The position numbers and the translations under genes were made by a program. From positions 41,214-105,213 of the forward strand of contig NZ_AZRK01000015.1 in the NCBI RefSeq assembly GCF_002895485.1: 64,000 nucleotides of DNA, in the 5' to 3' direction. The notes beneath the pieces are model-generated. The model was not told the DNA's origin, ran no database searches, and worked only from the letters and a program-made list of their open reading frames with translations. Positions 6,979-56,790 of this stretch are shown in pieces. Numbering within the stretch: position 1 is the stretch's first letter; every line of letters starts with the position of its first letter. This stretch comes from Petrotoga sp. 9PWA.NaAc.5.4. Lineage in GTDB: Bacteria > Thermotogota > Thermotogae > Petrotogales > Petrotogaceae.

Positions 6979-9204
6979 TCATCCTTTATATTCCGTTATT
7001 TTACTTATTCTACTTGAATTGTAAATTACATTTATAGAACTAAATAACATAGCTATCTCAGCTATAACCGGATGAAGAACTCCCATCATTGCAAATGGTA
7101 TTGCGATTATATTATAAAAAAAAGCCCAAAATAAATTTTGCTTAATCTTTTTGAATGTAACTTTTGATATTTCAATAGCATCCAATACTTTCGAAATCTC
7201 TCCTTTTGAAATTATTACATCAGCACTTTCTATAGTCAAGTCCGTTCCAGTTCCTATTGCTATCCCAATTTCCGCCGATTTAAGTGCGGCGGCATCATTT
7301 ATACCGTCTCCTACCATGCAAACTTTTTTGCCTTCTATTTGATATTTTCTAACAATTTCGACTTTATTTTCAGGAGATACATTTGCCCAAAATTCATCTA
7401 TTCTAACGGTCTCACACACATTTTTTGCTGTTATTTCATTGTCACCTGTTACCATAACAGTTTTTATATTCATCTCTTTTAATTTTGTAATAGTTTCTAT
7501 TGTATCTTCCTTTATTTTATCAGAGATTCTTATATAACCAATACTCTTATCGTTTTTTAGAACTTCTATTATAGTTTCTCCTTTTTCCATAAAATTTTTA
7601 TATTTATCAGGAACTTGTGGTTTACCAATAAAGTAATTATCGTATTGGTATGTACCTTTAATACCTTCTCCAGTTTTTTCTTCAATGTTTATTACTTGTA
7701 TGTTTTGCAACTTATTTCTATCGTAATTTTGAAAATAATATTCAACAATAGCTTTAGCTAAAGGATGAGTAGAATTTTCTTCAATTTTTGTAATAATTGA
7801 ATATGTTTCATCATCCAACGTATGTCCTTTAACGGTAGGATGTCCTTCGGTTATTGTTCCTGTCTTATCAAACAAAACAACATTTATATCCTTAGCAATT
7901 TGAATAGCTTCACCATTTTTTATGATTAAACCTTTTTTTGCAGAAATACCGCTTGCAACAACAAGAGCCATTGGCGTTGCTAATCCTAAAGCACATGGGC
8001 AAGCGATAACTAAAGTTGCAACAAAAACAAATATAGACATAGATAGCCTTTCCACATCAGTTAAAACCCAAGGAAAAACTTCAGATGCTCTTATTAGAAA
8101 AGGTTGAAAACTTTCATAATTAAAAAACCATATTATAGCACTAACCAAAGCCGCAAAAAAAACTATCGGTATAAAATAAAGTGTAATTCTATCTGCAAAT
8201 GCTTGAATTGGTACTTTTGAGGATTGAGCTTCTTCAACAAGTTTTATCATTTGGTTTATAAATGTGTCTTCCCCAACTTTTTCAACTTTTATCTTTATCA
8301 ATCCCGATTCTAAAATGGTTCCACTTATCGCTTCTTCTCCTATTTTTTTGTACACAGGTAGAGGTTCTCCGCTTACCATTGATTCGTTAATATAACCTTC
8401 ACCTTCTACAATGATACCATCTAAAGGAATTTTCTCTCCTTTTCTTACAAGTAGAATCTCTCCTATTTTTACTGTTTCTATAGGAATAGCAACAACACCT
8501 TTTTCAGTAACAACATTTGCTTTATCTACTTTAAGAGAAAGCAAAGAAGTAATTTCTTTTGAAGCATTTTTTTTCATTCTTGATTCTATGTATCTTCCAA
8601 TTAAATTTATAGTAATGAGCATAGTTGCTACAGTACCAAAAGAAAATATATCTATTCCTAAAAGAGCCAGTACAGTAGTAAACCAAGCAGAAAGTGCTCC
8701 AATTGTTACTAAAGTGTTCATATTTGAATGTTTATGTGTCAATGCGATCCAAGCACTTTTCAAAGTTTCTCTTCCTGGAATAAAAATTACCAAAGCTCCT
8801 GCAATGAGTTCAAAAATTAAGAAATACGGAACATGAATACCCACCATATGTAATATCATAAGAACCATTAAAGGCAAGGTAATCGATATAGAAATCAACA
8901 TGTTTTTTCTTGCTTTTTTAAAACCTTTTTCTATAAGATCTTCTGAAGGAGATTCTTTAGAAACTTTATAGCCAGCACTTTCTACAGCCTCTTTTATTTC
9001 ATTAAATGATATAGGTTTCTCAGAAATCACTACCGCCTTTTCTGTGGCTAAGTTCACAGAGACATACTTCACACCTTCTATTTTATTTAAAGCTCTCTCT
9101 ACATTTCTTACACAAGAAGCACAAGTCATGCCTTGTACGGCAAAAGATATTTTATTCTCTGTAAAATCAATCGTTTGGTTTACATTTGTAGTTGCTTGAC
9201 TCAA
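6979..9204 (-). CDS. copA: copper-exporting P1B-type ATPase
   Basis: One N-terminal HMA domain (GMTCASCVRNVERAL) is followed by the membrane CPC motif (IACPCALGLATP), the phosphorylation site DKTGT, the HPLAKA nucleotide-binding motif and GDGINDAAAL. This is the Cu(I) exporter architecture of about 740 residues with one HMA domain. It pumps Cu(I) out of the cytoplasm. The TTG at 9204 is preferred because GAGGTG lies 6 nt upstream; the frame also extends 3 codons to a GTG that overlaps that ribosome site. It starts 15 bp after csoR, so the two are co-transcribed and presumably induced by copper through CsoR. Confidence 0.96.
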   Translation of the reverse strand: MSQATTNVNQTIDFTENKISFAVQGMTCASCVRNVERALNKIEGVKYVSVNLATEKAVVISEKPISFNEIKEAVESAGYKVSKESPSEDLIEKGFKKARKNMLISISITLPLMVLMILHMVGIHVPYFLIFELIAGALVIFIPGRETLKSAWIALTHKHSNMNTLVTIGALSAWFTTVLALLGIDIFSFGTVATMLITINLIGRYIESRMKKNASKEITSLLSLKVDKANVVTEKGVVAIPIETVKIGEILLVRKGEKIPLDGIIVEGEGYINESMVSGEPLPVYKKIGEEAISGTILESGLIKIKVEKVGEDTFINQMIKLVEEAQSSKVPIQAFADRITLYFIPIVFFAALVSAIIWFFNYESFQPFLIRASEVFPWVLTDVERLSMSIFVFVATLVIACPCALGLATPMALVVASGISAKKGLIIKNGEAIQIAKDINVVLFDKTGTITEGHPTVKGHTLDDETYSIITKIEENSTHPLAKAIVEYYFQNYDRNKLQNIQVINIEEKTGEGIKGTYQYDNYFIGKPQVPDKYKNFMEKGETIIEVLKNDKSIGYIRISDKIKEDTIETITKLKEMNIKTVMVTGDNEITAKNVCETVRIDEFWANVSPENKVEIVRKYQIEGKKVCMVGDGINDAAALKSAEIGIAIGTGTDLTIESADVIISKGEISKVLDAIEISKVTFKKIKQNLFWAFFYNIIAIPFAMMGVLHPVIAEIAMLFSSINVIYNSSRISKITEYKG

Positions 9205-43394: not shown

Positions 43395-44180
43395 CTTAAA
43401 CTTCTTTTCTTTAACTTCTTCGCTGCGTGTAGCGAAAGAGGAATGAGGGCTCCGCCCTGGACCCGCTATAAATTCAAAAGCTCATTTTCTGAAAACCTTC
43501 ATTTCTAAAGTTCTTATCTAATTCTCACTAATTCTTAATTTTTTTGACTTTTTCGGTACTTGTACCGAAGAAAGGAGAGAGGGCTCCGCCCTGGACCCGC
43601 TATAAATTCAAATGCTTATTTTCTGAAAATCTTCATTTCTAAAGTTCTTATCTAATTCTCACTAATTCTTAATTTTTTTGACTTTTTCGGTACTTGTACC
43701 GAAGAAAGGAGAGAGGGCTCTGCCCTGGACCCGTTTTAAATTCAACCGCTTGTTTTTATAAAATTCTCGTTTTCAAGGTTCCTGTCTAACTACGATTTTT
43801 TTACTTCTTCGCTGCGTGTAACGAAAGAGGAATGAGGGCTCTGCCCTGGACCCTTTTTAAATTCAAAAGCTCATTTTCTGAAAATCTTCATTTCTAAAGT
43901 TCTTATCTAATTCTCACTAATTCTTAATTTCTTTAACTTTTTCAGTACTTGTACCGAAGAAAGGAGAGAGGGCTCCGCCCTGGACCCGCTATAAATTCAA
44001 AAGCTCATTTTCTGAAAATCTTCATTTCTAAAGTTCTTATCTAATTCTCACTAATTCTTAATTTCTTTAACTTTTTCAGTACTTGTACCGAAGAAAGGAG
44101 AGAGGGCTCTGCCCTGGACCCGTTTTAAATTCAAACGCTTGTTTTTATAAAATTCTCGTTTCCAAAGTTCCTACTTCTTT
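43395..44180 (-). repeat. intergenic repeat array G, six units, pointing to the DUF368 gene
   Basis: The largest array. Cores (plus reading) lie at 43447-43464, 43581-43598, 43715-43732, 43836-43853, 43970-43987 and 44104-44121, with spacings 134, 134, 121, 134 and 134 bp. Units alternate between two hairpin types, CGCTGCGTGTAGCG and TTCGGTACTTGTACCGAA (perfect at 43552-43569). Cores alternate between GGA and AGA loops. Neighbouring units are almost identical, so the array has grown by tandem duplication of one- and two-unit blocks. It has no complete leader module at the gene-proximal end. Confidence 0.93.
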
Positions 44181-45418: not shown

Positions 45419-46375
45419 CTAAGATTTTGGCCTGCCCTCTTTCCCATACAAAGCAGCCGATGCAGCGCCAAGAATACCAGCATCTTCCACTAAAGAAGAT
45501 TGTTCAATAATATAAGTATCGGCAAAACTGCTCATTACATATCTTTTTGTCATTTCACGCAGTGGCACAAATAGAGCATCACCTGCTTTACTCAGTCCCC
45601 CACCAATTATGATTTTTTCCGGATTAAAAGCGTGTATATACCCTCCTATTGCACGAGCCAAAGAATCAATAGCAAAATTAACTACAATCGTTGCTAAGGG
45701 ATCCATTTTCTTATAAGCTTCAAAAACATGTTTAGATTCTATCTTTTCTTTAGAACCTGCAAGTTTTAGAACTAAACTATCAGGAAATCTGTCGATTAAA
45801 TTCTTTGCTTCTCTTGCAATGGATTTTGCGGAAGAAGTTGCTTCTACACATCCCCTATTTCCACATCCACATTCCGGACCATTTGGTACTACAACAATAT
45901 GCCCTAACTCAGGTGCTAACCCGTCTTTTCCAGTAAGAAAAATATTATTACAAACTACCCCCGAACCAATCCCTGTACCTAAAGTTAAAGCAATAAAATC
46001 TTTAAGACCTTTGGCTTTACCAAAATACCATTCACCAAGTGCAAACGCATTAGCATCGTTTTCAACAAACACCTCTTTTTGAACATTTTTCTTTATTTCT
46101 TTCGCCAATTCAAAATTGCGCCAATTAGGGAAGTTAGGAGAAAATTTAACAATTCCATTATCTCGATCAATTGATCCAGGAGACCCTATTCCTACTGATG
46201 AAACGTTTGTATCTTTAGCTAATTCCCGGATTACATTGGAAATATTTTCAATAACCTTATAATTACCCAGTTCTACTTGTGTTGGATAAGAAACTTTATT
46301 AATAATACCCTTTTCCTCATCGACTAATCCACCTTTAATCTCAGTACCTCCTAAATCTATTCCTACAACGACCAC
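45419..46375 (-). CDS. ROK-family sugar kinase, probably glucokinase
   Basis: About 318 residues with the ROK layout: the phosphate-binding GIDLGGTEIKGGLVDEE, the catalytic NDANAFALGEWYFG, LGTGIGSGVV, the glucose-contact ELGHIVVVPNGPECGCGNRGCVEATSS with a CxCGxxGCxE zinc motif, and FNPEKIIIGGGLS. The zinc motif and ELGH place it among ROK kinases, with glucose the most common substrate; other hexoses or N-acetylmannosamine cannot be excluded. It lacks a helix-turn-helix, so it is a kinase and not a ROK repressor. The GTG at 46375 is favoured by GAGGAG 8 nt upstream. Confidence 0.88.
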   Translation of the reverse strand: MVVVGIDLGGTEIKGGLVDEEKGIINKVSYPTQVELGNYKVIENISNVIRELAKDTNVSSVGIGSPGSIDRDNGIVKFSPNFPNWRNFELAKEIKKNVQKEVFVENDANAFALGEWYFGKAKGLKDFIALTLGTGIGSGVVCNNIFLTGKDGLAPELGHIVVVPNGPECGCGNRGCVEATSSAKSIAREAKNLIDRFPDSLVLKLAGSKEKIESKHVFEAYKKMDPLATIVVNFAIDSLARAIGGYIHAFNPEKIIIGGGLSKAGDALFVPLREMTKRYVMSSFADTYIIEQSSLVEDAGILGAASAALYGKEGRPKS

Positions 46376-46384
46376 TTTTATCAC

Positions 46385-46685: not shown

Positions 46686-46796
46686 GAATTATTATCAAAA
46701 AAATTTGATGGAAAATTATCAGAAGAATTGAAAGAGAAAATTCAAAACGCGGAAGATGAAACAATAAATTACATAGCTGTCAATTACGCATCTTAA
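46686..46796 (+). pseudogene. C-terminal remnant of a Rpn/DUF4351-like nuclease gene, copy 1
   Basis: An open frame of 36 codons follows an in-frame stop and lacks a start. It reads LLSKKFDGKLSEELKEKIQ...AEDETINYIAVNYAS and stop. The pattern (LL.KKF..LSEELKEKI..A.EETI) resembles the C-terminal tail of DUF4351 found in Rpn/YhgA-type putative transposase nucleases; this is recognition by eye. Its last 25 bp (46752-46776) recur exactly at 47886-47910 on the far side of the toxin-antitoxin pair. Confidence 0.5.
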
Positions 46797-46949
46797 AATC
46801 AATGTTTTAAGGGTTGTTAAAAATATTAATCGTTTGAACGTTTTCAAAACCACGAGATACACAGGCTGCATATGAAACTAATTACCTTTCAATTTAAATC
46901 AGTGTTTAAAACTATTTACTGTATTATATTGCATTTGATTTTTTACTCT

Positions 46950-47360
46950 TCAATCTAACAATTTTAAAGTTATCTTTGTAAATTCAAGAAAATCGTTTAG
47001 ATGTTCTTCAATAATTTTTTGAACTATGCTCAAATTAAGAGTTCGATAATCATGAACAGCTATATTTCGAAATCCCACCATTGCTTTCAATCTGTCAGCT
47101 AACCTTTCATCAATAATGTTCGCTTCATTTAGAATATCAAAAACTTGACGAGTTGTCTGTGGAACTCCTAATTTATTAGTAGAAACAATATGCATGGCTA
47201 TATCAATACAAGCTTCACACGCTCTTTGAATATTTAATATTATTGAGTCTTGCTTTGTATAATTTTTTAAATTTGCTGGATCATTGTTATATTCTTCGTT
47301 TATTCTATAAATACATCTCTCAATAATCGCAGTTTTATTTATTATAATATCATTTTGCAT
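46950..47360 (-). CDS. hepT: HepT-like toxin of a HepT/MntA system
   Basis: A 136-residue HEPN-domain protein. The catalytic RX4-6HXY motif is present as FRNIAVHDYRTL. Helices and length match HepT (formerly DUF86). In the best-studied pair HepT is an RNase that MntA silences by attaching AMP to the tyrosine of that motif. It overlaps mntA by 11 nt and is translated after it. Function is inferred from the family. Confidence 0.88.
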   Translation of the reverse strand: MQNDIIINKTAIIERCIYRINEEYNNDPANLKNYTKQDSIILNIQRACEACIDIAMHIVSTNKLGVPQTTRQVFDILNEANIIDERLADRLKAMVGFRNIAVHDYRTLNLSIVQKIIEEHLNDFLEFTKITLKLLD

Positions 47361-47757
47361 ATATGCTCCCGCTTTCTTTTATTTTATTTAGAATTTCTTC
47401 TCTTTCTTCATTTAACCTTGCATAACTTTTATAGGTAATCATTTCAAAGATGGCTCTTTTTTTCTCATCATAAGAGTAAATTACAAGTCCGGTACTTATG
47501 ATTTGAGTTTGAAAAACAGTAGATGCTTTTTTAATATCTATTAAATCTACTTCTCTGCCTACTAAATCAGCTAATTTCTGAGATAAAAGGAAAAGATCAA
47601 ACGCATCTACGGATTTTTCACTCAAAAAGGCAATATCAATATCACTATCTTCTCTCATTATGTTTTTTACTGAAGATCCAAAAAGATATATTACATCTAC
47701 ATCTAAATTTTTGATTAAAAAGTTTTTTATAATTTCAATTTGCTGCTGGGTTATCAT
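47350..47757 (-). CDS. mntA: MntA-like minimal nucleotidyltransferase antitoxin
   Basis: A 135-residue minimal nucleotidyltransferase with the active site LFGSSVKNIMREDSDIDIAFL, that is GS with a downstream DxD, and a third acidic residue in VDLIDIK. It should use ATP to AMPylate its partner HepT. GAGGGGATG precedes the ATG. The pair stands alone between two copies of a truncated gene end, which fits an acquired module. Confidence 0.88.
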   Translation of the reverse strand: MITQQQIEIIKNFLIKNLDVDVIYLFGSSVKNIMREDSDIDIAFLSEKSVDAFDLFLLSQKLADLVGREVDLIDIKKASTVFQTQIISTGLVIYSYDEKKRAIFEMITYKSYARLNEEREEILNKIKESGSIYAK

Positions 47758-47858
47758 TTTAACATCCCCTCTTATTCGATTTTCAAATATTTTGCAATAG
47801 AGTCATTAAACGTTATTTTTGCTAATTTTATTATATCATACAGTTTTAAATTTAAAGA

Positions 47859-47930
47859 GAAGAGACCTTTGGTTTATTAATTGCAGAAGATGAAACAATA
47901 AATTACATAGGAGACAATCTATATTCTTAA
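47859..47930 (+). pseudogene. C-terminal remnant of the same gene family, copy 2
   Basis: The frame reads RETFGLLIAEDETINYIGDNLYS and stop. The 25 bp at 47886-47910 are identical to 46752-46776, and the rest of the tail is similar in spacing (CAAT and TCTTAAA recur). Together with copy 1 it brackets the hepT-mntA pair in direct orientation. Confidence 0.5.
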
Positions 47931-48023
47931 AGTTGGCTCCATAATTTAAATTCTGAAAAATATAGTAAAATATTTATTGATAGATTATTTAGAAATAAAA
48001 ATAATCAAGAGGTGAAAATTGAA

Positions 48024-49088
48024 ATGAAAATCCTTCATACCGCAGATCTTCATTTGAAAGAATATGAAGATGAAAGATGGAAGAGTTTAAAACAAATTAT
48101 AGAAGTTGGAAAACAAGAGAATATTGAGCTTCTTTTAATAAGTGGAGATCTTTTTGATAAAGATATGGACTCAGAAAAACTTAGACCAAAAATTCGAGAA
48201 ATCTTTTCAAATAACAAATTCAGAATAATTATTCTTCCAGGCAATCATGACAGCGATTCATATAAAAATGGTTTGTATTTTGGAGAAAACGTAACTGTTT
48301 TAAATAATCCAGATCTTTCGCTTGAATTTAACAATGTCTGCATATGGGGCTTCCCTTTTGAACCTTTATCTTCAGAAGATATTCTAAGTAAAATTAGACT
48401 GTTTTCTTCTAAATTAGATAATACCAAAATAAACATATTAATGATTCATGGTGAATTACTTGATGCCTTCTATTCAAGAGATGATTTTGGAGATGAGGGT
48501 AAAGAGAGGTACATGCCTATAAAACTATCTTACTTTAAATCTTGTGGTTTTGATTATGTACTTGCGGGACATTTTCACACAAACTTTAATAATTATGAAT
48601 TTGAAAAAAATAAATATTTTGTATATCCAGGCTCGCCGGTGTCAATTACTAAAAAAGAAGTCAAACAAAGAAAGGTTAATGTTTTTGAAGTGGGCCAACC
48701 ACCTCATGATTATTTGATAGATACATTCCATTATGTAGAAATTAAGATTAACTTAAACCCTTTTGACGATACTAACCCAGTTGAGTTAGTAAAAAAAGAA
48801 ATAGAGAAAGCTCATAAAAATGCTAAGATGATTTTTACTATTACTGGGTACATAAACAGTGACTCGATTCATATGAGTGAACAAGAGATAGTTCAACAGC
48901 TAAAAAAGCTTGAGGGATACAATGCAGAATTTCCTAATTTGGAATTTATAGACATAAAAAGAATACTCGAAGACTCGCTTTTCGATAAGTTTTATAAGAA
49001 GGTTAAAGCTAAAAATTATCCACCTGAGAAAGAAAAAGAATTGTTAGATTTTGCAATTAGAGCAATGATGGAGGTTGTGAAAAAATGA
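48024..49088 (+). CDS. SbcD/Mre11-like DNA repair nuclease (YhaO type)
   Basis: A 354-residue calcineurin-type nuclease: MKILHTADLHLKE, LLISGDLFDKD, IILPGNHDS, NILMIHGELLD and the metal-binding GHFHTNF. It is shorter than full SbcD and lacks its long C-terminal region, like the YhaO branch. It should act with the ATPase encoded next on DNA ends or hairpins. The ATG at 48024 is chosen for GAGGTG 9 nt upstream and the usual N-terminus. It overlaps the partner gene by 4 nt. Confidence 0.88.
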   Translation: MKILHTADLHLKEYEDERWKSLKQIIEVGKQENIELLLISGDLFDKDMDSEKLRPKIREIFSNNKFRIIILPGNHDSDSYKNGLYFGENVTVLNNPDLSLEFNNVCIWGFPFEPLSSEDILSKIRLFSSKLDNTKINILMIHGELLDAFYSRDDFGDEGKERYMPIKLSYFKSCGFDYVLAGHFHTNFNNYEFEKNKYFVYPGSPVSITKKEVKQRKVNVFEVGQPPHDYLIDTFHYVEIKINLNPFDDTNPVELVKKEIEKAHKNAKMIFTITGYINSDSIHMSEQEIVQQLKKLEGYNAEFPNLEFIDIKRILEDSLFDKFYKKVKAKNYPPEKEKELLDFAIRAMMEVVKK

Positions 49089-51433: not shown

Positions 51434-51439
51434 GCATTT

Positions 51440-52200
51440 TATAAATAAAGATTTTAGAAAATAAGCTTTTGAATTTAAAACGGGTCCAGGGCGGAGCCCT
51501 CTCCTCACTCTTTGGCTACACTTAGCGAAAAACTAAAAAATAGTTAACTTGTCAAAATTAGAATTACATAAGCATTTTATAAATAAAGATTTTAGAAAAT
51601 AAGCTTTTGAATTTAAACGGGTCCAGGGCGGAGCCCTTCTCTTTCTCACTACACGTAGCAAAGAGGTTAAAGAAATCAAGAATTAGTGAGAATTAGAACT
51701 TAGAATAACTAGAAAAGAAGTAGAGACTTTAGAAATGAGAGTTTTCAAAAAATAATCTTTTGAATTTAAAACGGGTCCAGGGCGGAGCCCTCCTCACTCT
51801 TTGGCTACACTTAGCGAAAAACTAAAGAAATTAAGAATTAGTGAGAATTAGAACTTAGAATAACTAGAAAAGAAGTAGAGACTTTAGAAATGAGAGTTTT
51901 CAAAAAATAAGCTTTTGAATTTAAACGGGTCCAGGGCGGAGCCCTCTCCTCACTCTTTGGCTACACTTAGCGAAAAACTAAAGAAATTAAGAATTAGTGA
52001 GAATTAGAACTTAGAATAACTAGAAAAGAAGTAGAGACTTTAGAAATGAGAGTTTTCAAAAAATAATCTTTTGAATTTAAAACGGGTCCAGGGCGGAGCC
52101 CCCCTCCTCTCTTTCGTTAAGCTTAGCAAAGAAGTTAAAATTTATAGTTAGTCAGGAACTTTAGAAACGAAAAATTTTATAAAAACGAGGTTTTGAATTT
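51440..52200 (+). repeat. intergenic repeat array H, five units, pointing to tnaA
   Basis: Cores at 51482-51499, 51619-51636, 51773-51790, 51927-51944 and 52084-52101, all consensus, with spacings 137, 154, 154 and 157 bp. The longer period comes from an extra segment GAACTTAGAATAACTAGAAAAGAAG between units. The second hairpins are partly decayed (TTTGGCTACACTTAGCGAAA has one mismatch). It fills the whole gap between the SbcC-like gene and tnaA. Confidence 0.93.
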
Positions 52201-54784: not shown

Positions 54785-54811
54785 AACTATCCCTCCTCAT
54801 GAAAATTATTA

Positions 54812-55140
54812 TACTTACTTTAAAAATTTCGAAACCTAAGTTTTACCAATCTTTTAGTTTTAAATTTATTCAAAATACCTCCACGACTCTAATACTTACT
54901 AACTATGAATTTCTTTAACTTTTTCGCTACGTGTAACTAAAGAGGGGAAAGGGCTCCGCCCTGGACCCATTTTAAATTCAAAACTTCGTTTTTATAAAAT
55001 TTCTTGTTTCCAAAGCTTCTGACTAACTATGAGTTTTTAAGTTCTTTGCTAAACTTAACAAAACAGGAGAAGGCTGCGACCTGTACCCTTTTTAAATTCA
55101 AAACCTTATTTTCTGAAAAATTTTCATTTCTAAAGTCCGT
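54812..55140 (-). repeat. intergenic repeats, one intact and one decayed unit, pointing to the lipoprotein gene
   Basis: The intact core is at 54951-54968. A decayed core at 55071-55088 (plus reading AGGCTGCGACCTGTACCC) still has matching flanks. The leader module is at 54812-54882, about 28 bp before the lipoprotein start. Confidence 0.85.
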
Positions 55141-55490
55141 AAAGAATAAGAAGTTTACCTCATAATAAAATCCATCTAAATTATAACATAAAAATGATGA
55201 AAAATTAATGAAAAAATTTTTTGCCAATTTAATTCGCTTAAACTTTATTTTTAAAATGTGGCAGCTGATTTTCTCATATAAAAACTATCAAAAATTTAAG
55301 TTTTTAACTCAAAACAAATCTTAGAAACTATCCAATATACTGTAACCTGTTTTGAAAATAACGTAATGTAAAATATTAATCAATTTTTCTTCATAATGAT
55401 ATAATTATTATATCCCATGCTATAAAATAAATTAAAATTTTAATCAAAATGCTTTTTGAATTGAATTATGGTTTGAGGTGTGGAGGTATT
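55141..55490. other. gene-free centre of a divergent region, nothing recognised
   Basis: About 350 bp between two repeat arrays that point outward to divergent genes. It is very AT-rich. There is no convincing frame or hairpin; a TATAAT-like string near 55400 may be part of a plus-strand promoter. Confidence 0.4.
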
Positions 55491-55499
55491 TTATAAAAG

Positions 55500-56120
55500 T
55501 GAATAAACTAAATAAGAACTTTAGAAAAGAGAGCTTTTTAAAAATAATCTTTTGATTTTAAAAACGGGTCCAGGGCAGAGCCCTCCCCCCTCTTTGGCTA
55601 CAAGCACCGAAAAAGCTAAAGAAATAAACAATTGGCCAAAATTAGATAAAGACTTTAAAATGGAGAACTTTTTAAAAATAATCTTTTGATTTTAAAATGG
55701 GTCCAGGGCGAAGCCCTCCCCCCTCTTTGGCTACAAGTACCGAAAAAGCTAAAGAAATAAACAATTGGTCAAAATTAAATAAAGACTTTAAAATGGAGAA
55801 CTTTTTAAAAATAATCTTTTGATTTTAAAAGCGGGTCCAGGGCAGAGCCCTTCCCCCTCTTTAGTTACACGTAGCGAAAAAGTTAAAGAGATTCATAGTT
55901 AGTAAGTATTAGATAAGTACTTTAGAAATGATAATTTTCAAAAAATAGGAATTCGAATTTAAAATGGGTCCAGGGCGAAGCCCTCCCCCCTCTTTGGCTA
56001 CAAGTACCGAAGAGCTAAAGAAATCAAGAATTAGTAAAGATTATAAGTGGGAAGGTATCTTGTAAAAGAATCTCCGCTAAAATATACATATAATAAGAGT
56101 TCCGGAATTTCTAAAGACAA
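55500..56120 (+). repeat. intergenic repeat array, four units, pointing to the OsmC gene
   Basis: Cores at 55566-55583, 55699-55716, 55833-55850 and 55966-55983 (spacings 133, 134, 133). Cores use AGA or GAA loops in place of GGA while keeping the AGGGC/GCCCT arms. The leader module at 56050-56120 belongs to the same subtype as those of csoR and copZ, with CGCTAAAATATACATATAAT shared exactly with the csoR leader. Confidence 0.92.
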
Positions 56121-56567: not shown

Positions 56568-56579
56568 AAGTTATAGATA

Positions 56580-56790
56580 AGTACTTTAAAAATGCGCATT
56601 TTATAAAAACAGGGTTTTGAATTTAAAATGGGTCCAGGGCGGAGCCCTTTTTTCTTTCCTTTGATACTTGCAACAAAGAAATTAAAAAAATAGAGAATAG
56701 TTCAAAATTAGAATTACGGAGGTATTTTTATAAAAATTTTAAACTTAAAATATTAATAAAACTTAGATTTTAGAACTTCTAAAAACATTT
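56580..56790 (+). repeat. intergenic repeat, one unit, between osmC-like gene and mrp
   Basis: The core at 56630-56647 is followed by TTTTTTCTTTCC, which makes this copy look like a working intrinsic terminator. The second hairpin is of the CTTTG...CAAAG type. The leader module is at 56718-56790, 28 bp before the mrp start. Confidence 0.88.

Follow-up and report, generated by a model that had tools for sequence, protein, structure and literature searches.

A hepT-mntA pair between short direct repeats

The window, a stretch of 64,000 nucleotides from Petrotoga sp. 9PWA.NaAc.5.4 (genome G000), contains a predicted toxin-antitoxin (TA) pair, hepT-mntA, on the reverse strand, with remnants of rpn, a gene for a DNA-cleaving defence nuclease, on both sides; the remnants share a 25-bp direct repeat. 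G003, to which several of the features refer, is a genome of the sister genus g4.

45419-46384, - strand: ROK-family kinase gene (PF00480), left flank; ancestral neighbour of ispD, which it adjoins in G003, G009, G012 and G016
46714-46776, + strand: left rpn relic, C-terminal region, ending in the repeat; 55 of 61 nt (46714-46774) identical to rpn of G003, protein E 1.1e-9
46752-46776, + strand: left copy of the 25-bp direct repeat, exact match
46777-46893, no strand: spacer that separates the left relic from the shared block; resembles the G003 spacer no more than shuffled sequences do
46894-47882, no strand: 989-bp block common to G003 at 95% identity by DNA comparison; holds hepT and mntA
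46950-47360, - strand: hepT, 136 aa, predicted HEPN RNase toxin (PF01934; RX4HXY motif; PDB 6m6u/5yep)
47350-47757, - strand: mntA, 135 aa, predicted nucleotidyltransferase antitoxin (PF18765, PF01909; GSX10DXD motif; PDB 5yep)
47882-47922, + strand: right rpn relic, C-terminal region, starting at the end of the shared block; agrees with the two rpn copies of G003 at 36 of 41 and 38 of 44 nt
47886-47910, + strand: right copy of the 25-bp direct repeat, exact match
48012-49088, + strand: sbcD-like gene (PF00149), right flank; placed elsewhere in g4 genomes

A search of the window located the 25-mer GAAGATGAAACAATAAATTACATAG at both sites with 0 mismatches and in one orientation, on either side of the opposite-strand hepT-mntA, exactly as the earlier note on this DNA had described it. 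The repeat is present at just these two sites in the whole genome (2,224,578 bases, 45 contigs); no third match with up to 3 mismatches exists in the window, and there were 0 in 100 dinucleotide-preserving shuffles. Ungapped extension yields 49 nt at 80% identity (46749-46797 and 47883-47931), and beyond the 25 bp the two tails are still alike at 12 of 21 nt, a level reached in 148 of 20,000 shuffles. Between the repeats, the only frames of at least 60 aa are hepT and mntA, and no transposase, integrase or recombinase gene was detected. A phage source was rejected, the exact 25-mer having 0 matches in viral_contigs.

HepT matches PF01934 with 105.6 bits (cut-off 23.5), and MntA matches PF01909 with 37.5 bits (cut-off 21) and PF18765 with 78.4 bits, above the cut-off; the two genes share an 11-bp overlap. 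The best PDB matches are 6m6u and 5yep for HepT and 5yep for MntA, chains that we take to be of the Shewanella type. HepT carries RX4HXY as RNIAVHDY at residue 98 and MntA carries GSX10DXD as GSSVKNIMREDSDID at residue 27, the two motifs given for the HepT/MntA system in the published description (PMC7641770). Relative to G003, hepT differs by 13 synonymous and 5 non-synonymous codons, and mntA by 9 and 7, respectively. Given the family matches, both motifs, the PDB matches and these codon differences, the pair is apparently an ordinary HepT/MntA system, intact as judged by its motifs, in which MntA would probably add AMP units to HepT and thereby block its RNase activity, as published. The window pair shares both families, the motifs and the overlapping, upstream antitoxin gene with the class I (HEPN/MNT, PF01934/PF01909) system of Shewanella oneidensis, SO_3166/SO_3165, as presented in the available portion of PMC7641770, but differs from it in the rpn relics at both sides and in being known here from sequence.

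PADLOC gave no match for HepT or Rpn, and MntA matched PDC-S09 models. A scan of promoters and terminators was uninformative (10 promoter-like sites compared with 12.7 expected, and 0 terminators). A plasmid source was considered and rejected: 26 records match, with identities of 64.9-71.9% among the 20 listed, most of which are from Bacillaceae.

Nature and origin of the rpn relics

The earlier note had taken the two tails to be the ends of a gene of the Rpn/DUF4351 type. Their derivation from the C-terminal region of Rpn holds, with a match at E 1.1e-9, but they are not true gene ends, about 16 residues being missing. That match of the left tail (LLSKKFDGKLSEELKEKIQNAEDETINYIAVNYAS) is to an Rpn of G003, the parent protein of which matches PF04754 at E 5.9e-59; another is to an Rpn of G009 (E 3.0e-9). 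At E<=1, 21 of 41 genomes produced a match, although chance probably accounts for the weakest. The similarity to Rpn extends over 46714-46774 in the left tail and over 47879/47882-47922 in the right one, and upstream of 46714 the resemblance to rpn is weak and fades. Both tails resemble the C-terminal region of Rpn, and descent from unrelated genes, which would have told against the earlier note, is not what we find.

The Rpn proteins of relatives run about 16 residues further, with GDNLLEITIEELKEIL, so that the stops at 46794-46796 and 47928-47930 appear to be products of decay. The relics contain no start codon and no catalytic domain: the Transposase_31 / PD-(D/E)XK domain is absent from both tails, the longest frame in the left tail is 36 residues, and a PF04754 search returned nothing at C15. 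The genome does encode an intact homologue, for which the earlier note proposed to search, at C2:18359-18970, with a 336-aa open frame and a PF04754 match at E=2e-60. Three further rpn genes of G000 are cut by contig ends (L160, L161 and L163, at the end of C10, the end of C12 and the start of C18), and rpn repeats may accordingly have broken the assembly of this genome.

We compared the relics with 47 rpn tails from loci fetched from nine related genomes, dropping gapped or short matches. Four g4 tails are the closest to the left relic (53-54 of 63 nt) and g4 tails are also the closest to the right relic (34-35 of 39 nt). G000 has four more rpn tails, and these rank near the bottom of the comparison (36-39 of 63 nt for the left relic and 22-23 of 39 for the right one). 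A resident origin of the tails was rejected on the left-relic values, and the comparison indicates that the relics derive from foreign, g4-like rpn sequence rather than from resident genes.

The counterpart in the sister genus

Among 103 genomes of the phylum, G000 and G003 are the 2 that contain the 989-bp block, and the HepT of G003 is 96% identical to that of the window. In G003, the pair is located between a full-length rpn gene (L137 10361-11344, - strand, 327 aa) and a 147-aa C-terminal copy (8266-8709, - strand), with the same gene order and relative orientation as in the window. Over 540 bp, the full-length gene and the C-terminal copy of G003 are 92.6% identical, and they do not differ across the segment that corresponds to the window repeat; the repeat around hepT-mntA is thus 25-28 bp long in the window and approximately 540 bp long in G003. 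Of the two alternatives raised in the earlier note, namely, that the TA pair entered between two paralogues or that it replaced the body of one, the former is favoured over the latter because a relative carries the same pair between two rpn copies.

The flanks of the window locus are 67-73% identical to their counterparts in G003, compared with 95% for the hepT-mntA block. This value alone is no proof of recent transfer because divergence between the two genera is uneven: some other genes, those for GH3 and transglutaminase proteins (L151 vs L137), reach 88-90% identity in the same comparison of G000 with G003. A comparison of the left spacer (46777-46893) with that of G003 gave no signal, 270 of 500 shuffles scoring as well.

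Two other observations concern these genomes. In G003, the segment between mntA and the truncated rpn (L137:8710-9202) contains a putative decayed hicB-like gene, with frames assigned by eye. Dispersed intergenic repeats of about 130 bp, of the GGGCTCCGCCC type, occur in the window at 43397-44173, 51438-52185, 54811-56119 and 56578-56787, and also beside orthologous genes in G003 and G009.

Different sites in the two genomes

The G003 insert spans approximately L137 7718-11781, and in G000 the same flanks lie 60 bp apart at the orthologous place (L151 11599-11659). The insertion site of G003 is thus a different site from the window locus and is empty in G000. The ROK gene and ispD are adjacent in 4 of the 4 relatives examined; in G000, this adjacency is broken, with ispD on another contig, C17. 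On the other side, sbcD of g4 genomes sits elsewhere, beside a gene that is presumably PolC-like. The broken ROK-ispD adjacency and the different location of sbcD in g4 indicate that the window locus is a synteny break in the lineage of the window.

A reciprocal translocation was tried as an explanation and rejected: no rpn adjoins ispD on C17, matches in G000 to the PolC-like gene upstream of g4 sbcD are weak and incomplete, and no reciprocal junction of the rearrangement was found. Separately, a 70-bp relic, 83% identical to the interior of mntA, is present about 7.4 kb from ispD (L171:2084-2152; G000 C17:8083-8151), where an older copy of the hepT/mntA pair may have decayed.

Proposed evolutionary history of the locus

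The reading that we favour, with reasonable though not strong confidence, is that the locus is a worn unit of the form rpn - hepT/mntA - rpn C-terminal copy, which was exchanged horizontally between genera of one family. Since a nearly identical pair is flanked in the sister genus by one complete and one half copy of rpn, hepT/mntA probably came along with its rpn neighbours rather than landing alone. In the source lineage, the TA pair would have been flanked by an entire rpn gene and by a shortened duplicate of the C-terminal half of that gene, as is still the case in G003. In the lineage of the window, the unit, transferred in one piece, would have come to lie with the ROK gene on one side and sbcDC on the other, at a point where the ancestral link of ROK to ispD has been lost. 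Afterwards, the two copies of rpn would have decayed by deletion, the left one to about 60-100 bp and the right one to about 45 bp, probably with a deletion that joined the sequence upstream of mntA directly to the tail of rpn; the right relic starts exactly at the end of the shared block (47882/47883), as a single deletion junction would give. The 25-bp repeat would then be the surviving overlap of both relics. The points against such a history are the shortness of the relics (41-63 nt), the weak similarity to rpn upstream of 46714, the evidence coming from one genome of the genus, a left spacer unlike that of G003, the 88-90% identity of some other genes of the two genera, and the failure to find the reciprocal junction.

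An unlikely alternative is a single insertion of the hepT-mntA segment into one rpn tail already present at this site, with duplication of 25-28 bp, either as a long target-site duplication or through a single crossover of a circle carrying a short piece of rpn. Such an event would fit the exactness of the repeat and the layout of the two copies, the left one being rpn up to the repeat and the right one the repeat and then rpn onward. However, the length of the repeat would seem not to be fixed, given the much longer one around the same pair in G003, the window copies remain alike for 21 nt past the repeat, neither a recombinase nor a transposase gene lies between the repeats, and the tail differs in type from those of the resident rpn genes.

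Quite improbable, in our view, is an entry of the pair between two unrelated, already adjacent rpn copies of an array, with a separate origin of the G003 arrangement. Same-strand rpn arrays that enclose TA genes are indeed common in g3 genomes, but a separate origin would have to explain why two genera share the gene order, the orientation and a block at 95% identity, and why the relics are of the g4 type. That the repeats are active now, with recombination between them deleting the pair, as the direct repeats on both sides might suggest, in line with the loss that the earlier note considered, and as recombination of the 540-bp copies of G003 would do there by excising the pair and leaving one intact rpn, is very improbable in the window, where the exact match is limited to 25 bp with no recombinase gene in between.

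rpn and toxin-antitoxin genes in the family and beyond

In the accessible part of PMC10327210, Rpn is described as a gene-within-gene TA family in which some rpn genes have RpnS copies downstream, and rpn arrays arise by tandem duplication and cluster with defence genes. Overexpressed Rpn promotes RecA-independent recombination, according to the accessible part of PMC5350276. G003 resembles the E. coli rpnE-ypaA and rpnC loci, which have a second RpnS copy downstream, as they appear in PMC10327210, in that a full-length rpn is followed by a C-terminal copy on the same strand, but differs in having hepT-mntA between the copies; the window keeps relics only. Likewise, the same-strand rpn copies of the family, with other TA genes nearby, are comparable to the tandem-duplicated, defence-linked arrays of PMC10327210, the available text of which does not describe an inter-genus TA pair inside an rpn duplication. 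Our literature search, in part confined to top-ranked results, found no report of hepT-mntA inside an rpn duplication.

In 21 genomes of the family, 10 HepT-family genes are encoded, and 6 of these lie within 5 kb of rpn sequence, compared with 0.29 expected; with four probably related g3 loci counted once, 3 of 7 HepT genes are near rpn (P ~5e-4). The other four of the 10 have no rpn on their contig. A script scan of 20 rpn loci identified 18 same-strand rpn pairs separated by 350-4000 bp, and 7 of the 18 enclose a TA gene (hepT/mntA, hicB, parE-like, UPF0175 or DUF3368), which is to be read as a pattern and not as a statistic because rpn content was the basis for choosing the loci, the same loci supplied the queries, and the g3 set includes several related loci. 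Outside the family, among the best 80 of 202 relatives, with flanks of up to 6 kb and some shorter, mntA is located beside hepT in 80 of 80 loci and rpn is present in 0 of 80. In G018 (C20, L175:4530-7148), a UPF0175/DUF3368 pair has a full-length rpn on one side and, on the same strand as that gene, a C-terminal rpn fragment of 181 aa on the other, the plan also seen in G003.

This is a modest and largely explained case, in which the components are known and the combination is new. As a rather doubtful generalization, the C-terminal rpn copies of this family might serve as landing or exchange sites for TA cassettes, giving nested TA units that move between genera, with the window as a worn-out example. 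Cassettes, for which hepT-mntA, hicB with the parE-like gene and UPF0175/DUF3368 would be candidates, could enter via breaks made by Rpn nucleases or via homology between rpn tails, settling between rpn and a spare, rpnS-like C-terminal copy. The two genera have in common a TA pair together with pieces of rpn, in an intact version in G003 and a worn version in the window, and each version also has an unoccupied counterpart site. Should this pattern hold, the numerous short tails of rpn in these genomes would be a record of past exchanges of TA cassettes.
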